From NCBI RefSeq assembly GCF_030268085.1, contig NZ_BSDE01000004.1, positions 186,001 to 250,000 on the forward strand: a DNA stretch of 64,000 nt. Reading direction: 5' to 3'. This DNA is from Geothrix limicola (lineage in GTDB: Bacteria > Acidobacteriota > Holophagae > Holophagales > Holophagaceae). The translations under genes were made by a program, and so were the position numbers. The notes under the pieces are model-generated. The model worked only from the letters and a program-made list of their open reading frames with translations, had not been told where the DNA came from and made no database searches. Of the stretch, positions 44,286 to 56,444 are shown one piece after another. Position 1 is the stretch's first letter, and the number at the start of each line of letters is the position of its first letter.

Positions 44286-45995
44286 TCATCGGGACAGCTG
44301 GGGAACGTTGAGATGGGCCGGACACGGGGCTGGAGGACGCACCCGCCCATCGAAGCGGCCTGGGAGGGTGGCCCCGCAGGTCGGGCAACCGCCTTCGGCG
44401 TCCAGGTCCAGGCTCAGCAGGCGGAACCCTTCGCGCTGGATGAGGGGCCGTCCGCAGCCGGGGCAGAAGGTCGTCGCGCCCTCCGGATCGTGGAGGTTGC
44501 CGATGTAGACATGCTTCAGTCCGGCCTCGCGGGCCAGGGCCCGGGCGCGGCGGAGGGCGGCGGGCTGGGTGGGCCGATGGTCCAGCATGCGGTACGCCGG
44601 ATGGAAGGCGCTGAAGTGGAGGGGAACCTCGACGCCCAGATCGTCGGCGATCCATTCGGCGAGCTGGCGGATCTCCGCCTCCGAATCATTCAGCCCGGGG
44701 ATGAGCAGGGTGGTGATCTCGGTCCAGACATCCGTGCTGTGGACGAGGTAGCGCAGGGTGTCGAGCACCGGCTGGAGGGAGCCCCCTACCGTCCGGTGGT
44801 AGAAGGCATCGTTGAAGGCCTTGAGGTCCACGTTCGCCGCGTCGATGTGGGCGAAGAAATCCCTGCGGGCAGCCTCTTGCAGGTAGCCCGCGGTCACGGC
44901 CACGGTGGCGAGGCCTTCGGCATGGCAGGCCTCGGCGACATCCGAGACGTATTCGAGGGAGATGGCCGGTTCGTTGTAGGTGAAGGCCACGCTACGGCAA
45001 CCCAGGTGCCGGGCCCCCGAGGCCACGGTGTCGGGCGCGGCCCACTCCTGCAGTCGGTCCGGATCGCGGGAGCGGGAGAGGTGCCAGTTCTGGCAGAACC
45101 GGCAGGTGAGGTTGCAGCCGACGGTGCCGAAGGAAAGCACCGAGGTGCCCGGCAGGAAATGGTTCAGCGGCTTCTTTTCGATGGGATCCACGCAGAAGCC
45201 GCTGCTGCGGCCGTAGGCCGGGAGCACCATGCGGTCGCCGATCCGCTGGCGCAGGAAGCAGCGGCCACGCTGACCCTCGTGCAGGGCGCAGCCGTGGGGG
45301 CATACGTCGCAGCGCAGGCGGCCGTCGGCAAGCCGGTGCCAGTGCCGGGCGGGATAAAGGAAGCCCGCGGCGGGCGGGGCATTGAGGGGCGCCGGTCGCG
45401 GCTCGTCGCGCCAGGCTTCCACGGTGTAGGTCCAGACCTGCATCCCGGGCGGCCAGAAGGTGGCGGGCCAGCCGGCCTTGAGCTTGAGAGCCGCGAGGAA
45501 GGCGCGGGGCTCGGGCATGTGATCCCAGACCTGGGGGAGGAAGGTGGCGCTCCGGCCCTCGTGCTCCAGCAGCAGGCCATCCACGCCCGGCCGCAGCTGG
45601 CGCAGCAGGTCCTCCTCGTCGGTGCAGGCGAGCGGGTTCAGCGGCGACAGGAGGGAGACTTCCACGGCGAGGCGGGGCAGCTGCTCGGGTGGAAGGGGCT
45701 CGAAGCGGGGATCGTCGAAGGCGGCGGCCCGGGCGTGGCGTCGCACTCCCTCGGCTAGGGAGCCGTCCGGCCAGAGGCTGCCGACGCAGCCCCGGAGCTG
45801 GCCATCCAGGGTGAGGGTGACGAAGCTGGCCTGGGGCCGGTCGAAAACAGAATCAGGGGCGGCCTCCTGGTCGTCGGAGGACTCCTCGAGGAGGTGCGGG
45901 CCCAGGGCCTCGGCGATGGCCCGCCGGGCCATGCGCGCCAGCCGGTGCCCATCCAGGTCAGGAGGGCTCGGTTTCGAAGAAGGCAAAGGCTCCAT
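44286..45995 (-). CDS. AmmeMemoRadiSam system: AMMECR1 domain fused to radical SAM enzyme
   Basis: 569 residues. Residues about 12-185 are an AMMECR1 domain (ASFVTLTLDGQLRGCVGSLW, AAFDDPRFEPL, VEVSLLSPLNPL, FLPQVW). Residues about 225-569 are the AmrS-type radical SAM protein: a Cys cluster CDVCPHGCALHEGQRGRC, the SAM cluster loop GCNLTCRFCQNWHLS (CxxxCxxC), then IDAANVDLKAFND and a C-terminal zinc-ribbon pair CPGCGRPL ... CPTCG. The two partners are commonly separate genes next to a Memo gene; here they are one polypeptide. The start overlaps the Memo-protein gene by 38 bases. The system's substrate is unknown; it is predicted to modify an RNA or protein target. Confidence 0.9.
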   Translation of the reverse strand: MEPLPSSKPSPPDLDGHRLARMARRAIAEALGPHLLEESSDDQEAAPDSVFDRPQASFVTLTLDGQLRGCVGSLWPDGSLAEGVRRHARAAAFDDPRFEPLPPEQLPRLAVEVSLLSPLNPLACTDEEDLLRQLRPGVDGLLLEHEGRSATFLPQVWDHMPEPRAFLAALKLKAGWPATFWPPGMQVWTYTVEAWRDEPRPAPLNAPPAAGFLYPARHWHRLADGRLRCDVCPHGCALHEGQRGRCFLRQRIGDRMVLPAYGRSSGFCVDPIEKKPLNHFLPGTSVLSFGTVGCNLTCRFCQNWHLSRSRDPDRLQEWAAPDTVASGARHLGCRSVAFTYNEPAISLEYVSDVAEACHAEGLATVAVTAGYLQEAARRDFFAHIDAANVDLKAFNDAFYHRTVGGSLQPVLDTLRYLVHSTDVWTEITTLLIPGLNDSEAEIRQLAEWIADDLGVEVPLHFSAFHPAYRMLDHRPTQPAALRRARALAREAGLKHVYIGNLHDPEGATTFCPGCGRPLIQREGFRLLSLDLDAEGGCPTCGATLPGRFDGRVRPPAPCPAHLNVPQLSR

Positions 45996-46752
45996 AGCCG
46001 ACCACCTCTTCCATGTCGCCCGCCGTATCGCCCGAGCTGCGGAGGTCGAGCAGGACGGGGTGCAGCTTCCGGCGCTTGGCGGCCTCCAGGAATCCCGCCA
46101 CGGGGGTGGCCCCGCAGGCGCGTTCGGATTCCAGGCTGGTGTCCAGGTGCAGGATCCTGCGCACGGTCTCCTCGTCCATGGCGCGGCCCACGCGGTAGGG
46201 CAGGTAGTGGGACAGGTCCGAACTCACGACGAGGACGGTTTCGGGGCCACCCCACAAGGCCTTCAGCACTTCGGCGATTTGGAAGGGCGTGGCTTCGCCC
46301 ACGAGCAGCGGGACCAGCTGGGCCTTCGGCGCCACCACCTGCAGGAAGGGCAGCTGCACTTCCAGGGAATGCTCGGGCCGGTGGATGGCTTCGCTGCGGC
46401 GGATGTGGGGAAGGCTCGTCAGGGCCTCCTGATCGAGGTCCACGGTGCCGAGGGGGGTCTCGAAACCGCCGGATTCGGGCAGGGCCATGCCGTGGAAAGC
46501 CGCGTGGTGGCTGGGGCCGAGCAGGATCACCCGCTCGAGGGTGGAGCCCTCGTGCAGCAGCCGGGCATAGGCACTGGCGGCCACGGGGCCCGAGTAGGGG
46601 TAGCCCGCATGGGGCACGATCAGCGCCTTGGGCATGGGCTCTTCCGGCGGCACGTATACGACGGCGAGCATGCGGTCCACGTCCTCCCGCAGGCGGGCGG
46701 GATTCCCGGGATAGAAACGACCAGCGACCGAGGGCGGGCGCACCGTCAACAT
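45958..46752 (-). CDS. amrB: AmmeMemoRadiSam system protein B (Memo-like)
   Basis: 264 residues with the Memo fold, related to non-haem iron dioxygenases. Seen motifs: VAGRFYPGNPARL, IVPHAGYPYSGPVAASAY, ILLGPSHHAAFHG, IHRPEHSLEVQLPFLQ and VVSSDLSHYLPY; the His residues (HAGY, PSHH, SDLSHY) are the expected metal or catalytic set. It lies immediately upstream of, and overlaps by 38 bases, the fused AMMECR1/radical SAM gene, so the complete three-part system is encoded by two overlapping genes. Its function in bacteria is unsettled. Confidence 0.93.
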   Translation of the reverse strand: MLTVRPPSVAGRFYPGNPARLREDVDRMLAVVYVPPEEPMPKALIVPHAGYPYSGPVAASAYARLLHEGSTLERVILLGPSHHAAFHGMALPESGGFETPLGTVDLDQEALTSLPHIRRSEAIHRPEHSLEVQLPFLQVVAPKAQLVPLLVGEATPFQIAEVLKALWGGPETVLVVSSDLSHYLPYRVGRAMDEETVRRILHLDTSLESERACGATPVAGFLEAAKRRKLHPVLLDLRSSGDTAGDMEEVVGYGAFAFFETEPS

Positions 46753-48437: not shown

Positions 48438-50513
48438 GTGTCCCTGCTCCATCGATTCCTCGTTCCAGCCCTCATCGTCGCCCTGCCCGCGGCCGCGGCG
48501 GAGAAACGGGCCTTCACCATCGAGGACCTCTACCGGCTGAAAGGCGTGCAGCACCTGGCGCTCAATCCCGAGGGTTCGAAGCTGGCCTTCGAGGTCTCCA
48601 GCCAGGATCTGAAGGCCGCCACGCGCAACACGCAGATCTGGGTGCTGGACGTGGCCACGGGCCAGACGAAGCAGCTCACCTATTCGGGCAAGTCGGACAC
48701 GGCGCCCCAGTGGTCGAAGGATGGCAAGACGCTCTACTTCCTGTCGAGCCGCACGGACGGAAGCCAGCTCTGGGCCCTGGACGCCGCCGGCGGCGAGGCC
48801 CGCAAGCTCACCTCCTTCGAGGCGGGCGTCGGCGCACCGAAGCTCATGCCGGGCTCGAACCGGGTGGTCTTCGAGGCCTCGGTGTTCCCCGAGGCGATGG
48901 CGGACGGGGCCAAGCAGAAGAGCCTGAGCGACAAGCTGGACAACGGCCCGGTGCAGGCCCACCTAGCGGATTCGCTGCTCTACCGCCACTGGACCGAGTG
49001 GCGCGACTTCCAGTACACCCACCTCTTCAACGCCAGCTTCGACGGCAAGGTCGAAGCCATCACGACGGGCAAGCAGGACTACCCCGCCTTCTGGCAGAGC
49101 TGGGACCTGAGCCCCGACGGCAAGGAGGTCTGCGTCACGACGAACGCGGATCCCGTGCCCGCCCGCAGCACCAACCAGGATCTCTTCCTCATCTCGCTGG
49201 AAGGCGACCGCACGCCCCGGCGCATCACCGGCGACAACCCGGCCGCGGATCAGGATCCCAAGTACTCGCCCGATGGCCGCTTCATCGCCTACCGCTTCCA
49301 GACCAAGCCCGGCCACGAATCCGACCGCTTCCGCCTCGCCCTCTACGATCGCCAGACGAAGACCCGCAAGGTGCTCACCGAGGCCATCGACAACTGGGTG
49401 GACAGCTTCCAGTGGTCCGCCGACGGCAAGGCGATCTGGTTCACCGTGCAGGAGAAGGGCCGCTGGCCGCTCTTCCGCCTGGAGGTCGCCACGGGCAAGA
49501 CCACGCGCATGCTTGAGGGCCAGAGCATCCGCGAATTCCAGGTGAGTCCCGATCAGAAGGCCGTCTACCTCACCAAGACCCGCGTGGGCGAACCGGCCGA
49601 GATCTGGCGCTACGGCTTCGACACCAAGGAACTGAAGCGGCTGACGGGCTTCAACCAGGCCGTGGCCGAGGAAGTCGACATCCGTCCCGCCGAGGAGCAG
49701 TGGGTGAAGGGTGCCGATGGCAAGGACATCCACGTCTTCCTCGTGAAGCCCCACGGCTTCGACCCCGCCAAGAAATATCCCCTGATCCTGAACGTGCACG
49801 GCGGCCCGCAGATGATGTGGTCCGACACCCTGCGCGGCGACTGGCAGGTCTACCCCGGCGCGGGCTACATCGTGGCCTTCCCGAATCCGCACGGCTCCAC
49901 GGGCTACGGCCAGGCCTTCACGGACGCCATCAGCGGCGACTGGGACGGCAAGGTTCAACAGGACATCGAGAAGGTGACCGACCACCTGGCTTCGCTGCCC
50001 TACGTGGACAAGGACCGCATGGGCGCCATGGGCTGGAGCTGGGGCGGCTACGCCATGATGTGGCTGGAGGGCCACACGACCCGCTTCAAGGCCCTGGGCG
50101 CCATGATGGGCGTCTACGACCTGCGCTCCATGCACGGCGCCACCGAGGAGCTCTGGTTCCCCGAGCACGACCTCACGGGCACGCCCTGGGATAAGGCGAC
50201 CGCCTACGACCGCATGAACCCCAGCAGCCACGTGAAGGCCTTCAAGACGCCCTGCCTCGTCATCACGGGCGAGCGCGACTACCGCGTGCCCTACACGCAA
50301 AGCCTGCAGTTCTTCACGGGCCTGCAGGAGATGGGCGTGCCCAGCCGCCTCATCGTCTTCAAGAACGACGGTCACTGGCCCGACAACCTGAAGTCCATGC
50401 CCGTCTACTACAACGCCCACCTCGAATGGTTCCAGAAGTACCTGGGCGGCGGCGCCGCCCCCTGGAAGACCGAGGACATGGTGCGCAACCTAGCCTTCGA
50501 CACCAAGAAGTGA
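48438..50513 (+). CDS. Exported S9-family prolyl oligopeptidase/dipeptidyl peptidase-like enzyme
   Basis: 691 residues from GTG at 48438, with CGGAGG five bases upstream. Signal peptide LLHRFLVPALIVALPAAAA. Residues about 30-420 form a WD/beta-propeller region (GVQHLALNPEGSKLAFEVSS, YSPDGRFIAYRFQ). The C-terminal alpha/beta hydrolase domain carries the catalytic Ser in GWSWGGYAMM (S534), Asp in TGERDYRVPY (about 614) and His in NDGHWP (H646). It should cleave short peptides in the periplasm or outside. It is divergent from the nucleotidase gene. Confidence 0.93.
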   Translation: MSLLHRFLVPALIVALPAAAAEKRAFTIEDLYRLKGVQHLALNPEGSKLAFEVSSQDLKAATRNTQIWVLDVATGQTKQLTYSGKSDTAPQWSKDGKTLYFLSSRTDGSQLWALDAAGGEARKLTSFEAGVGAPKLMPGSNRVVFEASVFPEAMADGAKQKSLSDKLDNGPVQAHLADSLLYRHWTEWRDFQYTHLFNASFDGKVEAITTGKQDYPAFWQSWDLSPDGKEVCVTTNADPVPARSTNQDLFLISLEGDRTPRRITGDNPAADQDPKYSPDGRFIAYRFQTKPGHESDRFRLALYDRQTKTRKVLTEAIDNWVDSFQWSADGKAIWFTVQEKGRWPLFRLEVATGKTTRMLEGQSIREFQVSPDQKAVYLTKTRVGEPAEIWRYGFDTKELKRLTGFNQAVAEEVDIRPAEEQWVKGADGKDIHVFLVKPHGFDPAKKYPLILNVHGGPQMMWSDTLRGDWQVYPGAGYIVAFPNPHGSTGYGQAFTDAISGDWDGKVQQDIEKVTDHLASLPYVDKDRMGAMGWSWGGYAMMWLEGHTTRFKALGAMMGVYDLRSMHGATEELWFPEHDLTGTPWDKATAYDRMNPSSHVKAFKTPCLVITGERDYRVPYTQSLQFFTGLQEMGVPSRLIVFKNDGHWPDNLKSMPVYYNAHLEWFQKYLGGGAAPWKTEDMVRNLAFDTKK

Positions 50514-50526
50514 GGACGGGAACTTC

Positions 50527-50557
50527 GGGGGCCCCGGGTTGAAAACTCAGGGCCCCC
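50527..50557 (+). terminator. GC-rich hairpin after the S9 peptidase gene
   Basis: GGGGGCCC (50527-50534) and GGGCCCCC (50550-50557) pair exactly across a 15-base loop. No T-run follows, so it may need Rho or be a weak terminator. It lies 13 bases after the stop. Confidence 0.45.
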
Positions 50558-50617
50558 CCGCCCGGGATCCGAAGAGATGGGTATCGGAAGGCTTCCGGGC
50601 TTCGCCCCAAGGTTCCT

Positions 50618-52855
50618 GTGCGTCCACTCCTCCAAGGCATCCTGTGGCTCCTGCTGGGGATGGCGATCCCCGTGCCGGCTCCGGCCCAGGCGCCGCCGGA
50701 ACGGGTCACCCTCCAGCTGAAGTGGCACCACCAGTTCCAGTTTGCGGGCTACTACGCCGCCCAGCAGCAGGGCTACTACCGCGAGGCCGGCCTCGAGTTG
50801 GAGATCCACGAAGGCCAGCCCGGCATCGACGTGGTGCAGGAAGTGGTGAGCGGCCGTGCCCAGTTCGGGGTGGGCACCAGCGCGCTCCTGCTCGCCCGGA
50901 ATCAGGGCCGGCCCGTCGTGATCCTGGCGGCGATCTTCCAGCACTCCCCGGTCATCCTCGTCGCCCGCACCGGGGCCGGCATCGGCTCGGTCCAGGATCT
51001 GCCCGGCAAGCGCCTGATGATCGAGAAGCAGTCCGACGAGCTCTTCGCCTACATGCGCAAGGAGGGGGTGTCGGAAAGCTCCGTGACCCTGCTGCCGCAC
51101 ACCTTCAACCCCGAGGATCTGATCGAGGGAAAGGTCGATTGCATCAGCGCCTACCTCACGGATGAGCCGTATTTCTTCGACAAGGTGCGCTTCCCCTACC
51201 TGGTCTTCACGCCCCGCATGGGCGGCATCGATTTCTACGGCGACAACCTCTTTACCTCCGACGGGGAACTGAAGGCCCATCCTGAGCGGGTCAAGGCCTT
51301 CCGGGAAGCGAGCCTGAAGGGCTGGAAGTACGCCATGCAGCACCCGGAGGAGATCACGGACCTGATCCTCGCGCGCTACGGGAAGGGCCGTGGCCGCGAG
51401 TATCTCCTCTACGAAGCCCAGAAGATGAACATGCTCCTCCAGCCGAGCCTCGTGGACATGGGCTACATGTACCGCGGGCGCTGGCAGCACATCCGCGACA
51501 CCTACGCCGAACTGGGCCTCCTGCCCAAGGGCTTCGATCTGGACAAGGTCCTCTACGAACCCGAGGCAGGTGCGCGGCAGATCAACCGCAGGCTCGCGGT
51601 GGCCACGGCGGTGCTGCTGGGCGTGGGCCTCCTCCTCGCCAGCGCCACCCTGATCTTTTCGCGGCTCTACCTCCGGCTGAAGCGCGAGACCGCCTCCCGC
51701 GAAGAGGCCGAGAGGGCCATGCGCCTCGAGCAGGAGCAGAAGGTCCAGCTGGAAATCCAGCTGCAGCAGGCCCGGAAGATGGAGAGCCTGGGCAACCTGG
51801 CGGGCGGCATCGCCCACGACATGAACAATGTCCTGGGGGCCATCCTCGGCATCGCCTCGGCCAACCAGGAAGCCCAGCCCTCTGACAGTGATACCCACCG
51901 GGCCTTCGAGATCATCACCCGGGCCGCCGAGCGGGGCGGGAAGATGGTCAAGTCCCTCCTCAGCTTCGCGCGCCAGAGCCCGGCCGAGCAGCGGGAAGTG
52001 AACCTGAACCAGATCATCCGCGAGGAGACGGAACTCCTGGAGCGGACCACCCTCTCCAAGATCCGGTTGGAGATGGACCTGGATCCCGACCTGAAGCCCA
52101 TGCTCGGGGATGCCGGCGCCCTGACCCAGGTCCTCATGAACCTTTGCGTCAATGCCGTGGACGCCATGCCCGATCGGGGCACCCTCACCCTCCGGACTCG
52201 GAACCTCGGGCGGGACAGGATCGAGGTCAGCGTCGAGGACACGGGCTCGGGGATGCCCAAGGAGGTGCTGGACAAGGCCATGGAGCCCTTCTTCACGACG
52301 AAGGAGATCGGCAAGGGCACCGGTCTGGGCCTGTCCATGGTCTACAGCACCGTGAAGGCCCACCATGGCGAGGTGGCGCTCGATAGCCACCTGGGCCTGG
52401 GCACCCGCGTGACCCTCCGTTTTCCGGCCTGCGATTCCGAATGCCGACCCGGGCAAGCGGAGGGAGATTCCCGGGCCGAGGCCGGTCGCAGGGCCCTCCA
52501 GGTGCTCCTGGTGGACGATGACGAGCTGGTGCTGGGCTCCGTCGAGCACGTCCTCCAGTCGCTGGGCCACATCGTTGTGACGGCCGGAAGCGGGGAGATG
52601 GCCCTGGACCGGATCGAAGGCGGGTACGAGCCGGATGTGGTGATCCTCGACCTGAACATGCCGGGGCTCGGCGGCCACGGCACCTTGCCCCGCCTCCGGG
52701 ATCTGCTTCCAAACGTGCCGATCCTGCTTTCCACCGGCCGGGCGGACCAGTCCGCCCAGGCGCTGGTCAAGGCCTATCCCCTCATCACCCTGCTGCCCAA
52801 GCCTTTCTCCATCCAAAGCCTGCGGGACCACCTGGAGGAAGTGGCCCGGGGCTGA
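50618..52855 (+). CDS. Hybrid sensor kinase with periplasmic THI5/NMT1-type binding domain and C-terminal receiver
   Basis: 745 residues from GTG at 50618 (AAGG five bases upstream). A signal peptide is followed by a SsuA/THI5/NMT1-like solute-binding domain (about 30-310: VTLQLKWHHQFQFAGYYAAQ, EAGLELEIHEGQPGIDVVQE, VSGRAQFGVGTSALLLAR). Then come one TM (about 328-350), a coiled coil, HisKA (GGIAHDMNNVLGAI, H400), HATPase_c (NLCVNAVDAM, DTGSGMP, GTGLGLSMV) and a receiver domain with phospho-acceptor Asp in VVILDLNMPG (D678). The binding domain resembles proteins that bind thiamin-pyrimidine (HMP) precursors or nitrate/sulfonates, so the kinase may sense such a molecule directly. No DNA-binding partner is adjacent. 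Confidence 0.9.
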   Translation: MRPLLQGILWLLLGMAIPVPAPAQAPPERVTLQLKWHHQFQFAGYYAAQQQGYYREAGLELEIHEGQPGIDVVQEVVSGRAQFGVGTSALLLARNQGRPVVILAAIFQHSPVILVARTGAGIGSVQDLPGKRLMIEKQSDELFAYMRKEGVSESSVTLLPHTFNPEDLIEGKVDCISAYLTDEPYFFDKVRFPYLVFTPRMGGIDFYGDNLFTSDGELKAHPERVKAFREASLKGWKYAMQHPEEITDLILARYGKGRGREYLLYEAQKMNMLLQPSLVDMGYMYRGRWQHIRDTYAELGLLPKGFDLDKVLYEPEAGARQINRRLAVATAVLLGVGLLLASATLIFSRLYLRLKRETASREEAERAMRLEQEQKVQLEIQLQQARKMESLGNLAGGIAHDMNNVLGAILGIASANQEAQPSDSDTHRAFEIITRAAERGGKMVKSLLSFARQSPAEQREVNLNQIIREETELLERTTLSKIRLEMDLDPDLKPMLGDAGALTQVLMNLCVNAVDAMPDRGTLTLRTRNLGRDRIEVSVEDTGSGMPKEVLDKAMEPFFTTKEIGKGTGLGLSMVYSTVKAHHGEVALDSHLGLGTRVTLRFPACDSECRPGQAEGDSRAEAGRRALQVLLVDDDELVLGSVEHVLQSLGHIVVTAGSGEMALDRIEGGYEPDVVILDLNMPGLGGHGTLPRLRDLLPNVPILLSTGRADQSAQALVKAYPLITLLPKPFSIQSLRDHLEEVARG

Positions 52856-52882
52856 GGTGTCCCGGGTGCGGGCTCCGTGTGG

Positions 52883-52890
52883 CAGAGTGG
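52883..52890 (+). promoter_or_regulatory. -10-like element CAGAGTGG shared with the Xaa-Pro peptidase gene
   Basis: GTGGCAGAGTGGTT occurs about 90 bases upstream of the ATG at 52976. The 12-base core GGCAGAGTGGTT recurs at 56824-56835 before another exported peptidase gene. The two genes may share a promoter type or regulator. Confidence 0.35.
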
Positions 52891-52975
52891 TTTCATTCCT
52901 GCCTTGATCCTCCTGTGGGCTTTGCAGGCTCGGCCACGCCCGCCAGGTTCGACGCACGATGAAAAGGACCCTCCG

Positions 52976-54730
52976 ATGACTCGACAATTCCTGCTGGTTC
53001 CCGCCCTGCTGGTCGTGGCCTCCACCGCGCCCGCCGGAACGCCTGCGATGGCGCCCGCCAAGGCCGCCTTCGCGCGGTTCAAGAGCGAGTTCATCGAGGC
53101 CTACTGGAAGCAGAATCCTGAAAGCGCCGTGGCGGTGGGGTATTACAAGTACGCGGACCGGCTGCCGGTTCCCGATGCGGCGGAACGCCGCCGCAGCCTC
53201 GGTTTCGGTGACCTCTGGCTGCGCAAGGCGAAGGCCTTCGATGAGGCGAGTCTGGACGTGCAGGACCGGGTGGACCTCCGCCTGATCCGCAATGAACTCG
53301 AATCCGAGCGCTGGGCGGCGACGGTCTTCAGGGGCCATCAGTGGGACCCCTCGAGCTACAACGTCGCGGGCACCTTCGGGCTGCTGCTGGGCACGGAGTA
53401 CGCCCCGCTGGACGCGCGGCTGCGGGTGGTGGGAAAGCGCCTGCCCCGCGTTCCCGCCTACTACGCCGCGGCCAAGGCGGCCCTCAAAGATCCCACGCTG
53501 GAGCACACCCAGCTGGCCATCCTCCAGAACAAGGGCGCCCTGGGCGTCTTCGGCGCGGACTTCCTCAAGCAGGTGGAGGGCTCCACACTGACGAGCGCCG
53601 AGAAGGCCCGCCTGAAGGCCGATGCGGCCAGGGCCCAGGCGGCCATCCAGGACTACATCACGCATCTTGAGGGCCTCGAAATGAGGCTGCGGGCTTCGGG
53701 ATGGCGCAGCTTCCGCATCGGCAAGAAGCTCTTCGAGACGTCGTTCGAGTATTCGATCCAGGCGGGCTGCACGGCCGAAGAGCTGCACCGTCGCGCCCTG
53801 GCGGAAAAGGAAAAGCTGCATGGCCGCATGGCGGAGCTGGCCCTCCAGCTCTGGCCCAAATACTTCGGCACCGAGCCCGCGCCCGCCGACCGTCTGGACC
53901 TGATCGGCCGCATGGTGGAGCGGCTCTCGCAGACACACGTTTCCGCCGAAGGCTTCGTGGCCGAAGTGAAGCGGCAGATCCCCCTGCTGGAAAGCTGGGT
54001 GCGTGAGCATGACCTCGTGAACCAGGATCCGACCAGGCCCCTGGTCGTGCGAGAGACGCCCGAATACATGCGCGGCGTTGCCGGCGCCAGCGTGAGCGCG
54101 CCCGGGCCCTACGATCCCAAGGCCAACACCTACTACAACGTCACGCCGCTGGAGGGCACGGCGGCCCAAAAGGAGAGCTACCTGCGGGAGTACAACGAGT
54201 ACATCCTCCAGGTGCTGAACATCCACGAAGCTATTCCCGGGCACTACGTGCAGCTGCTCCACGCCAACCAGTCGCCCAGCCTCGTGAAGGCCGTCTTCGG
54301 CAACGGCGCCATGGTGGAAGGCTGGGCCGTCTACGCCGAGCGCATGATGCTGGAATCCGGCTACGGCGGAAACACGCCCGAGATGTGGCTCATGTATTCC
54401 AAGTGGAACCTGCGGGTGGTCTGCAACGCGATCCTGGATTACGGCGTCCACGTCGAGGGGATGGGCGAGGCCCAGGCCATGCGCCTGCTCACGCGCGAGG
54501 CCTTCCAGCAGGACAGCGAAGCCCGGGAGAAGTGGCACCGGGCCCAGGTCACGTCGGTCCAGCTCTCCAGCTACTTCGCGGGCTACTCCGCCATCTATGA
54601 CCTGCGCGAGCGGCTCAAGGCGCAGCAGGGCCGCGACTTCGACCTCAAGCGCTTCCACGAGCAGTTCCTGAGCTATGGCAGCGCCCCGGTGAAGGTCATC
54701 CGCGAGCTGATGCTGCCCAAGGTCAATTGA
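52976..54730 (+). CDS. Exported DUF885 family metallopeptidase-like protein
   Basis: 584 residues from ATG at 52976, with AAAAGGA upstream. Signal peptide FLLVPALLVVASTAPA. The zinc motif HEAIPGHY (H417-E-x3-H422 region) and EGWAVYAERMM supply the family's metal ligands. DUF885 proteins are large all-helical metallopeptidases of the periplasm or cell surface with unsettled substrates. The 3' end overlaps that of the convergent histidine kinase gene by 8 bases. Confidence 0.87.
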   Translation: MTRQFLLVPALLVVASTAPAGTPAMAPAKAAFARFKSEFIEAYWKQNPESAVAVGYYKYADRLPVPDAAERRRSLGFGDLWLRKAKAFDEASLDVQDRVDLRLIRNELESERWAATVFRGHQWDPSSYNVAGTFGLLLGTEYAPLDARLRVVGKRLPRVPAYYAAAKAALKDPTLEHTQLAILQNKGALGVFGADFLKQVEGSTLTSAEKARLKADAARAQAAIQDYITHLEGLEMRLRASGWRSFRIGKKLFETSFEYSIQAGCTAEELHRRALAEKEKLHGRMAELALQLWPKYFGTEPAPADRLDLIGRMVERLSQTHVSAEGFVAEVKRQIPLLESWVREHDLVNQDPTRPLVVRETPEYMRGVAGASVSAPGPYDPKANTYYNVTPLEGTAAQKESYLREYNEYILQVLNIHEAIPGHYVQLLHANQSPSLVKAVFGNGAMVEGWAVYAERMMLESGYGGNTPEMWLMYSKWNLRVVCNAILDYGVHVEGMGEAQAMRLLTREAFQQDSEAREKWHRAQVTSVQLSSYFAGYSAIYDLRERLKAQQGRDFDLKRFHEQFLSYGSAPVKVIRELMLPKVN

Positions 54731-56444
54731 CGGGGAAGGCCTCGGCTTCGGGCGCATCCCAATGCGGGGGCGGGAACTCGATACGGAAGCGGGAGCCCCG
54801 CCCCACTTCGGTATGCACCTGGATGCGGCCGCCCAGGTCGTCCACCACGGCCTTCACGGAGCCCAGGCCGAGGCCCGTGCCCTTGCCGGCCTCCTTGGTG
54901 GTGAAGAAGGCCTCGAACAGGTGGGCCAGCACCTGGGGGGGCATGCCGCTTCCCGTGTCCTCGACCTCCAGCACGGCGCCAGGGCCTTCGCTGCCAAGCC
55001 GGACGGTGATGCTTCCCCCGGGCGGCGTCGCATCCTTCGCGTTGCCCACGAGGTTCACCACGATCTGATCGATGAGCGTGCCCTGGGCCCGCACCAGGAG
55101 CGGATGGTCCGGCACGACGACGATGAGCCCGAGGCTCTTGGGGATGAGGGCGCGGAGCACCGGTTCGAGCCCGCAGATGTGGGCCGTGAGGTCGAGGATG
55201 CTGAGTCCCGGGCCTTCCGGGCGCCCGGTGGCCATCATGCGTTGGGTCAGTTCCCCCGCGCGGACCAGCGCGGTTTCGAGCCGGCCGAGATCCTGCTCGG
55301 AGCGGCCAGGGTGCACTTCCGCCGCCAGGCCCAGGTAGCCCAGGGCCGCCGTGAGCAGGTTGTTGAGATCGTGGGCCAGGCCCGCACCCATCGTCGCCAG
55401 CAGGTTCATGCGCTGGGTCCGCAGGACGAGGGACTGTGTCTCCGCCAACTCCCGGGTGCGGATCTCCACCTTGGATTCGAGGTGGCGGTTGATCTCGACG
55501 TAGTCCCACAGCAGGAGCCCCTGGCGCAGCAGCACGAGGAGGGCGAGGCCGATGAGCAGCCCGAGGCCCATGCCGTCCCGGTGGGCACCCGCGGGCAGGT
55601 AGGTGGCCAGGGCCCCGCCGAAGGCCAGGACCACGGGCAGGTAGGGCAGCAGCAACAGAAGGATGCGGTGGGCCGAGGTGGAAGGACGCGTCGACCAGGG
55701 CGCCTGGGTCGCCCACCAGAGCATGGCCCAGAAGGGCACGCCGATGACTCGGGAGGGGTGGTAGATGTGGAAGGTGCCGCCGAGGATGGCGTAAGCCCAG
55801 AAGGGCACGGTCAGAGCGAAGTAGCCGAGGGCGAGCGCGAGGATCCCCACGGGACTGTCGAGGCTGAGCTGGCGCGCGATGAGGGCGTGGCAGGCCAGGC
55901 CCAGGCTGCAGGCGATGAGCAGGAAGAAGGCCTGGAGCAGCAGCTGCGTCTGGGGGTCTCCCGCCACGGGCAGGAGCGGCTTCACGACCCACATCCAGAA
56001 CATGAGGTAGAGGGCGGTCGCGAAGATGATGCCGTCGAGAAGGGCTCCCCCCCGGCGGCCGGGCTCGCGGGGACGCTGGCTGCGGAAGCCGACGAGGGAG
56101 GCGGCCACGGGAAGGATGGACAGCGTCCACCCGGAAAGCTGCGACAGCGGAGGGTGGTGGATGAAGAAACCCTGGACGAACTGCTGGCGCAGGGCCGTGG
56201 CGAGGGCGAAGGACACCATCAGGAAGAAGCACCCGACCAGGATCCAGCCCCACCGGTTCAGGGGTTCCCGCCTTGCCCTGCGGAAGGCCTCAAGTCCGGT
56301 ATAAGGCAGCAGGACGAGGTAGATGAGCGTGGGGACGCCCACCCGCACCGCCGGTGGAAGGGCGGACGGAACCAGGAGGAGGATGCTCGCGCTTCCGAAC
56401 ACCGCAAACATCACCCAAGGGGGCACCCTCGATTCAGCCGTCAT
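54723..56444 (-). CDS. Membrane sensor histidine kinase
   Basis: 573 residues from ATG at 56442-56444. The N-terminal half has eight or nine hydrophobic segments (7TM-like, about 10-320), followed by a short coiled coil (LESKVEIRTRELAETQ), HisKA with GAGLAHDLNNLLTAALG, and HATPase_c (NLVGNAKDATPPGG, DTGSGMP, GTGLGLGSV). No PAS domain or receiver is attached and no response regulator is adjacent, so its partner must lie elsewhere. GATAAT lies 7 bases before the ATG, another leaderless-looking start. The signal sensed is unknown. Confidence 0.88.
   Translation of the reverse strand: MTAESRVPPWVMFAVFGSASILLLVPSALPPAVRVGVPTLIYLVLLPYTGLEAFRRARREPLNRWGWILVGCFFLMVSFALATALRQQFVQGFFIHHPPLSQLSGWTLSILPVAASLVGFRSQRPREPGRRGGALLDGIIFATALYLMFWMWVVKPLLPVAGDPQTQLLLQAFFLLIACSLGLACHALIARQLSLDSPVGILALALGYFALTVPFWAYAILGGTFHIYHPSRVIGVPFWAMLWWATQAPWSTRPSTSAHRILLLLLPYLPVVLAFGGALATYLPAGAHRDGMGLGLLIGLALLVLLRQGLLLWDYVEINRHLESKVEIRTRELAETQSLVLRTQRMNLLATMGAGLAHDLNNLLTAALGYLGLAAEVHPGRSEQDLGRLETALVRAGELTQRMMATGRPEGPGLSILDLTAHICGLEPVLRALIPKSLGLIVVVPDHPLLVRAQGTLIDQIVVNLVGNAKDATPPGGSITVRLGSEGPGAVLEVEDTGSGMPPQVLAHLFEAFFTTKEAGKGTGLGLGSVKAVVDDLGGRIQVHTEVGRGSRFRIEFPPPHWDAPEAEAFPVN

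Follow-up and report, generated by a model that had tools for sequence, protein, structure and literature searches.

The sensors of BvgS and EvgS are SBP_bac_3 domains, periplasmic domains of the solute-binding protein (SBP) type fused to a hybrid histidine kinase. The kinase described here, encoded in a 64-kb stretch of Geothrix limicola DNA (the window), resembles them in this fusion but uses an NMT1 domain. A further parallel, in a fold that differs from that of NMT1, is offered by the dCache sensors; as in the clade described below, one module is carried by many receptor types. For the dCache sensors of purines and amines, the ligands of this shared module were measured, as reported in PMC11245519 and PMC10104139. 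That SBP Pfam domains act as sensor domains is stated in general terms in PMC9602780; no description of NMT1-type sensor kinases or cyclases turned up in the literature searched.

The nearest solved folds are those of ThiY (3ix1) and the C. difficile protein 4nmy, which share a conserved Trp and Tyr with the sensor but are transporter subunits, have Asp-Trp where the sensor has Lys-Trp, and are 18–20% identical to it. The HMP-P synthase THI5 has a similar fold, but is an enzyme. The ABC-type NMT1 SBPs linked to dihydropyrimidinase (for example at Klebsiella, Thalassospira, Sinorhizobium and Deinococcus plasmid loci) belong to the same fold family and have the cleft motif [KR]W..Q.QFAG in common with the sensor; unlike the fused sensor, they are stand-alone proteins in ABC operons (about 27–35% identity), and their Trp112 and Tyr157-Asn158 differ in the sensor. 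For the kinase half, the CckA-type hybrid kinases (NF046020) were the best NCBIfam match and show the same HisKA-HATPase-receiver layout, but their sensor part differs and the score of 255.4 bits falls under the cut-off of 1000.

Layout and surroundings of the kinase

The gene (Table 1) begins with GTG, immediately preceded by an AAGG stretch. The original prediction of a kinase joining an NMT1/THI5-type domain to a receiver was borne out: Pfam matches were obtained for NMT1 (PF09084; residues 39–245, E 6e-49, 167.3 bits against a gathering cut-off of 20.5), HisKA (residues 391–453, E 7e-8), HATPase_c (residues 497–604, E 5e-24) and Response_reg (residues 629–739, E 4e-17), and the H, N, D/G1, F and G2 boxes and the receiver Asp and Lys, read directly from the sequence, are all intact. 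Hydropathy gave a single strong transmembrane window (residues ∼328–352); a weaker one at residues 100–118 falls inside the folded domain. The hydrophobic N-terminus and the single strong transmembrane window indicate that the NMT1 domain is periplasmic. The Pfam scan found neither HAMP nor PAS between the membrane and the DHp region, so the signal would have to cross the short linker directly. As read from its sequence, the protein is a complete predicted membrane sensor kinase and adds a further example to an established layout. An ORF of 1449 aa on the opposite strand (50408–54757, -), lying over the kinase and DUF885 genes, was judged to be a GC-rich mirror artefact.

The relatives found by the domain search place the host with Holophagaceae/Geothrix in the Acidobacteriota. 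In the host genome (4.23 Mb in 20 contigs), the gene order round the kinase is 5′-nucleotidase family (-), S9 peptidase (+), kinase, DUF885 (+), histidine kinase (-) and M24 peptidase (+). As originally noted, no cognate response regulator is adjacent, the flanks consisting of the two peptidases, DUF885 and a histidine kinase without a receiver. No thiamin or pyrimidine genes were found near the window's sensor. The flanking histidine kinase (54723–56444, -) has HisKA and HATPase_c domains, lacks a Pfam sensor domain, and is convergent to the DUF885 gene. Elsewhere in the window, genes for an AMMECR1-radical SAM fusion and a Memo-like protein lie side by side (44286–46752, -).

Orthologues lie in differing settings (gene names judged from sequence): one adjoins a permease-like gene near cydAB-like genes (G004), two adjoin a dus-like gene (G016 and G225) and another adjoins HypB/HypF-like genes (G124). 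The sensor kinase gene is therefore not bound to one operon. When the neighbours of 68 sensor loci were clustered, the largest shared cluster covered 20 loci and probably comprises signalling proteins, as judged from one example with a receiver-domain start; the smaller shared clusters came mostly from close relatives. The clustering over these 68 loci gave no ligand hint.

Table 1. Positions of the kinase, its parts and related gene pairs (window numbering, or locus numbering where a locus is named)
Feature	Position	Strand	Basis
Hybrid histidine kinase, 745 aa	50618..52855	+	ORF list, Pfam domains
Signal peptide/N-terminal hydrophobic segment, residues 1-25	50618..50692	+	Hydropathy 1.66 at residues 4-22; cleavage site inferred
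Periplasmic sensor domain, solute-binding, NMT1/THI5 type (residues 25-324)	50690..51589	+	Pfam, AF2 model, alignment A1
Signature of the clade, LKWHHQFQFAGYYAA, spanning the loop behind the first strand and the beginning of the first helix	50717..50761	+	Highest conservation within A1
IFQHSP, second conserved cleft-side loop	50933..50950	+	Alignment A1, conservation scores
GIDFYGDNLFT, third conserved cleft-side loop	51224..51256	+	Alignment A1, conservation scores
Transmembrane helix, residues 328-352	51599..51673	+	Hydropathy 2.32
HisKA dimerisation/phosphoacceptor domain, H box HDMNN within 51803-51838	51788..51976	+	Pfam, motifs
HATPase_c with N, G1, F and G2 boxes	52106..52429	+	Pfam, motifs
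Receiver domain with DDD, phospho-Asp and Lys motifs	52502..52834	+	Pfam, motifs
Binding protein and hybrid kinase pair, host genome	L097:3641-7224	-	
Binding protein and hybrid kinase pair, host genome	L097:14010-17266	-	
Binding protein and hybrid kinase pair, host genome	L098:3086-7813	-	

The sensor domain and its clade

The sensor had been described beforehand as a full solute-binding domain, and an AF2 model of 300 residues built from 58 alignment rows (mean pLDDT 94.9) agreed with this. When compared by Foldseek and VIA-align 2, the modelled fold best matched ThiY 3ix1 (Z 32.7, rmsd 2.6 over 291, 18% identity), followed by 4nmy, the thiamin-bound C. difficile binding protein (Z 31.6, rmsd 2.4 over 286). 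Lower matches to the model were THI5 (Z 28.3–25.7), SsuA (23.4), PqqT (23.2), CmpA (22.1), NrtA (21.2) and TauA (20.6); the comparison with THI5, SsuA and NrtA, suggested in advance as a check, thus ranks them in that order. Sequence profiles placed 4nmy first (E 1.9e-35), then 3ix1 (5.1e-28), THI5 (4e-15), SsuA (7e-8) and TauA (9e-5); NrtA and CmpA were absent from the 13 matches at E 0.001. SsuA, TauA, NrtA and CmpA belong to the same superfamily as the sensor, with weaker profile and fold matches than the thiamin branch.

A search of genome contigs with the domain as query gave 68 loci. Alignment A1 holds 57 of them plus the window's domain (58 rows), and alignment A2 holds 55 plus the window's protein (56 full proteins). 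Both omit L037, L042, L051, L054, L057, L060, L062, L072, L085 and L089; A1 also omits L077, and A2 also omits L034, L061 and L069. The loci omitted from A1 were near-copies, short, cut or passed over. The invariant residues of A1 (300-residue domain numbering) are L10, K11, W12, H14, F16, Q17, F18, A19, G20, Y22, A24, G28, D185, A207, G211, W212, Y214, A215, E242 and R264. Conservation averaged 3.24 bits in the cleft-side loops, which were picked by eye and labelled from secondary structure and general SBP topology, against 2.26 bits in the rest of the domain. In the tree, the 58 sensor rows fell on one side of a branch, apart from the other named groups, in 100% of 200 bootstraps (support 88/99). 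This sequence evidence assigns the window's domain to a sensor clade of its own, marked by the motif LKWHHQFQFAGYYAA.

The hosts of the 58 rows represent nine phyla: Acidobacteriota, Pseudomonadota, Verrucomicrobiota, Kiritimatiellota, Bacteroidota, Thermodesulfobacteriota, Spirochaetota, Campylobacterota and Fibrobacterota. Outputs among the 56 full proteins (overlaps were not counted) were GGDEF (25), HATPase_c (25), HisKA (16), receiver (13) and EAL (12), and PAS_3 was found in 31. A second solute-binding domain, SBP_bac_3, lies beside NMT1 in seven of the 56, which are possible dual-ligand sensors. In a phylum sample of 297 genomes, 13 sensor domains were found in nine genomes (367–436 bits, all in frames of at least 756 aa), while the remaining four matches below 1e-40 were stand-alone proteins (145–154 bits, frames of 323–420 aa). 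This gap in score and frame length indicates that sensors and transport proteins are well separated.

The sensor domain occurs a second time in the host genome (G000 contig C3, L096:7557–10100, -), 60% identical, on an NMT1-PAS-GGDEF-hemerythrin protein; the same layout is present in G007. In G002, G056 and G225, copies of the domain have leuS-like genes as neighbours. In three gene pairs of the host genome the fused layout is split: a separate binding protein (Phosphonate-bd or NMT1_2) is encoded immediately upstream of a hybrid kinase. Stand-alone relatives also occur in another Acidobacteriota family (f10, L121–L124), with DWYPQPEHGGFY in the three of the four that were read; judged from sequence, their neighbours are ABC ATPase-, amidase-, deaminase-, FAD oxidase- and creatininase-like genes, possibly a cluster for N-heterocycle use.

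Candidate ligands of the sensor

A pyrimidine-like N-heterocycle is our best guess for the ligand, not proven but more likely than nitrate or sulfonate. A tblastn search against plasmids gave 320 records, and the annotation was read round 16 transport-type matches, SBPs picked by hand among 40 listed of the 320 and in several cases interrelated; H1 and H2 are sensors and were not counted. The motif [KR]W..Q.QFAG is present in 57 of the 58 sensors, the window's included, and in nine of the 16 plasmid SBPs. A dihydropyrimidinase gene lies within 4 kb of six of these nine but of none of the seven without the motif, one of which adjoins rutABCD; the association of motif and pyrimidine genes (6/9 versus 1/7) is not significant (Fisher p 0.06, n = 16). 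No thiamin-synthesis gene was annotated in the stretch around any of the 16. The Lys-Trp motif in SBPs beside dihydropyrimidinase points to a pyrimidine-like ring as the ligand of the sensor. Against the sensor profile, the 16 SBPs scored 118–191 bits, the thiamin-SBP 124, ThiY 100 and THI5 59, the majority of the transport-type relatives examined outscoring both ThiY and the thiamin-SBP; the top SBP, from Herpetosiphon (191 bits), nevertheless lacks the motif. Trp112 and Tyr157-Asn158 are present in all six motif-bearing SBPs of the tree set and not retained in the sensors. Sensors and pyrimidine SBPs were grouped in 36 of 200 bootstraps, a grouping that was not rejected (p-AU 0.32). The tree, in which THI5, 4nmy, ThiY, Paracoccus and Caballeronia were flagged as long branches, and the comparison of pocket residues leave aside the L124 binding protein, whose translation contained 13 stops. 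A search of 82 sensor sequences at 1e-5 revealed no dihydropyrimidinase (HydA) or PreA gene; in the host genome no dihydropyrimidinase passed the cut-off (158 against 393 bits) and PreA had no good match.

A conserved ligand of another class, such as a product of purine breakdown or a small organic compound, quinone-like or other, is possible, if with some doubt. The combination of sensor invariants His14, Phe16, Asp185, Glu242 and Arg264 occurs in no SBP compared, the PQQ-binding protein also matches the sensor fold (Z 23.2), and the deaminase-, amidase- and creatininase-like genes next to the stand-alone f10 relatives would suit such a compound; however, there is no positive pointer to any given one.

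Thiamin or one of its precursors with a pyrimidine ring (HMP, FAMP), along the lines of the original proposal, is a ligand that is possible but not favoured, and which we regard as unlikely. By profile and fold the best solved relatives are indeed 4nmy and ThiY, Trp12 and Tyr183 are retained, and Gln84-His85 and Asp181 equal those in 4nmy. However, the residue preceding the conserved Trp is Lys11 in all 58 sensors, against Asp or Asn in 4nmy, ThiY and THI5, and sensors and thiamin proteins were grouped in none of the 200 bootstraps, although the AU test does not reject this grouping (p-AU 0.38); with neither grouping rejected, the tree leaves more than one SBP group as a candidate sister of the sensors. 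In G225 and G016, ThiD and the sensor are about 3 kb apart, but ThiD was found in all 13 of the same-genus genomes that were searched, and in G000 and G004 the two are on different contigs, so this linkage looks incidental and was discarded as a ligand clue. No TPP riboswitch was found in the host genome, nor any Rfam match in the 64-kb window or in ten neighbour loci, and the window has no linked ABC transporter, a trait of ThiY and the thiamin-binding protein. The host genome has ThiC, and de novo synthesis of HMP is therefore probable. In THI5, the catalytic elements Lys62, His66 (H66 appears in a PDB title) and CCCFC align with Gly, a gap and the DFYGD region of the sensor, respectively; all three are missing, and the sensor was rejected as an HMP-P synthase. 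The proposal therefore holds as regards the branch, thiamin-pyrimidine proteins being closer in fold and profile than nitrate/sulfonate ones, but not as regards HMP or thiamin as the specific ligand.

Nitrate, sulfonate, taurine or bicarbonate, the other option first offered, is very improbable: the broad fold is common to the sensor and SsuA, CmpA, NrtA and TauA, but these proteins lie about 9 to 12 Z units under ThiY, the SsuA profile match (E 7e-8) is far weaker than that of the thiamin-SBP (2e-35), and no nitrogen/sulfur transport genes were found in the scanned flanks of the kinase. It is about equally improbable that the domain lost small-ligand binding and works as a protein-protein platform, which would fit the lack of transport or catabolic genes linked to the sensor, but not the concentration of conservation in the cleft-side loops.

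Proposed signalling and reach of the clade

With a pyrimidine-like ligand as the preferred reading, we tentatively propose that the kinase is a transport-independent periplasmic sensor, a scheme we consider plausible as a whole. The two-lobe NMT1-type domain would bind a small polar ring compound in a cleft lined by KWHHQFQF, QHSP and DFYGD, most likely a pyrimidine-like N-heterocycle of the uracil/dihydropyrimidine/hydantoin class and less likely HMP. Closing of the lobes would be transmitted by the single transmembrane helix directly to the DHp helix and would alter autokinase activity, a direction of signalling that we infer; the phosphate would then pass to the fused receiver, to a histidine phosphotransfer protein and to a relay common to the paralogous hybrid kinases of the genome, its presumed partner.

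The kinase-receiver part is 43–65% identical to all eight host hybrid kinases aligned, and AHDMNN[VI]L is retained in all nine kinases of the comparison, the window's included. A broader search gave at least 35 matches in the host genome (all of the 35 scored, out of 169 first-look candidates), and there were six Hpt matches. A cassette common to many paralogues suggests one phosphorelay for all, which would explain the absence of a neighbouring regulator. In a plasmid relative from Arcobacter, the sensor gene overlaps at its end with the gene for a response regulator, indicating that the sensor module can also act as a classical pair.

The layout of the kinase is ordinary, while its sensor is widely shared and undescribed in the literature searched. 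It is conceivable, though doubtful, that the KWHHQFQFAGYY clade, carried in at least nine phyla on kinases, diguanylate cyclases and phosphodiesterases, serves generally to sense a single ligand class in the periplasm, probably pyrimidine-like rings; on the THI5/NMT1 fold it would then correspond to the dCache sensors for purines and amino acids. With one sensor module on many outputs, a single ligand measurement would annotate many kinases and c-di-GMP enzymes together, and would also show the route from a transport-protein fold to a stand-alone sensor.
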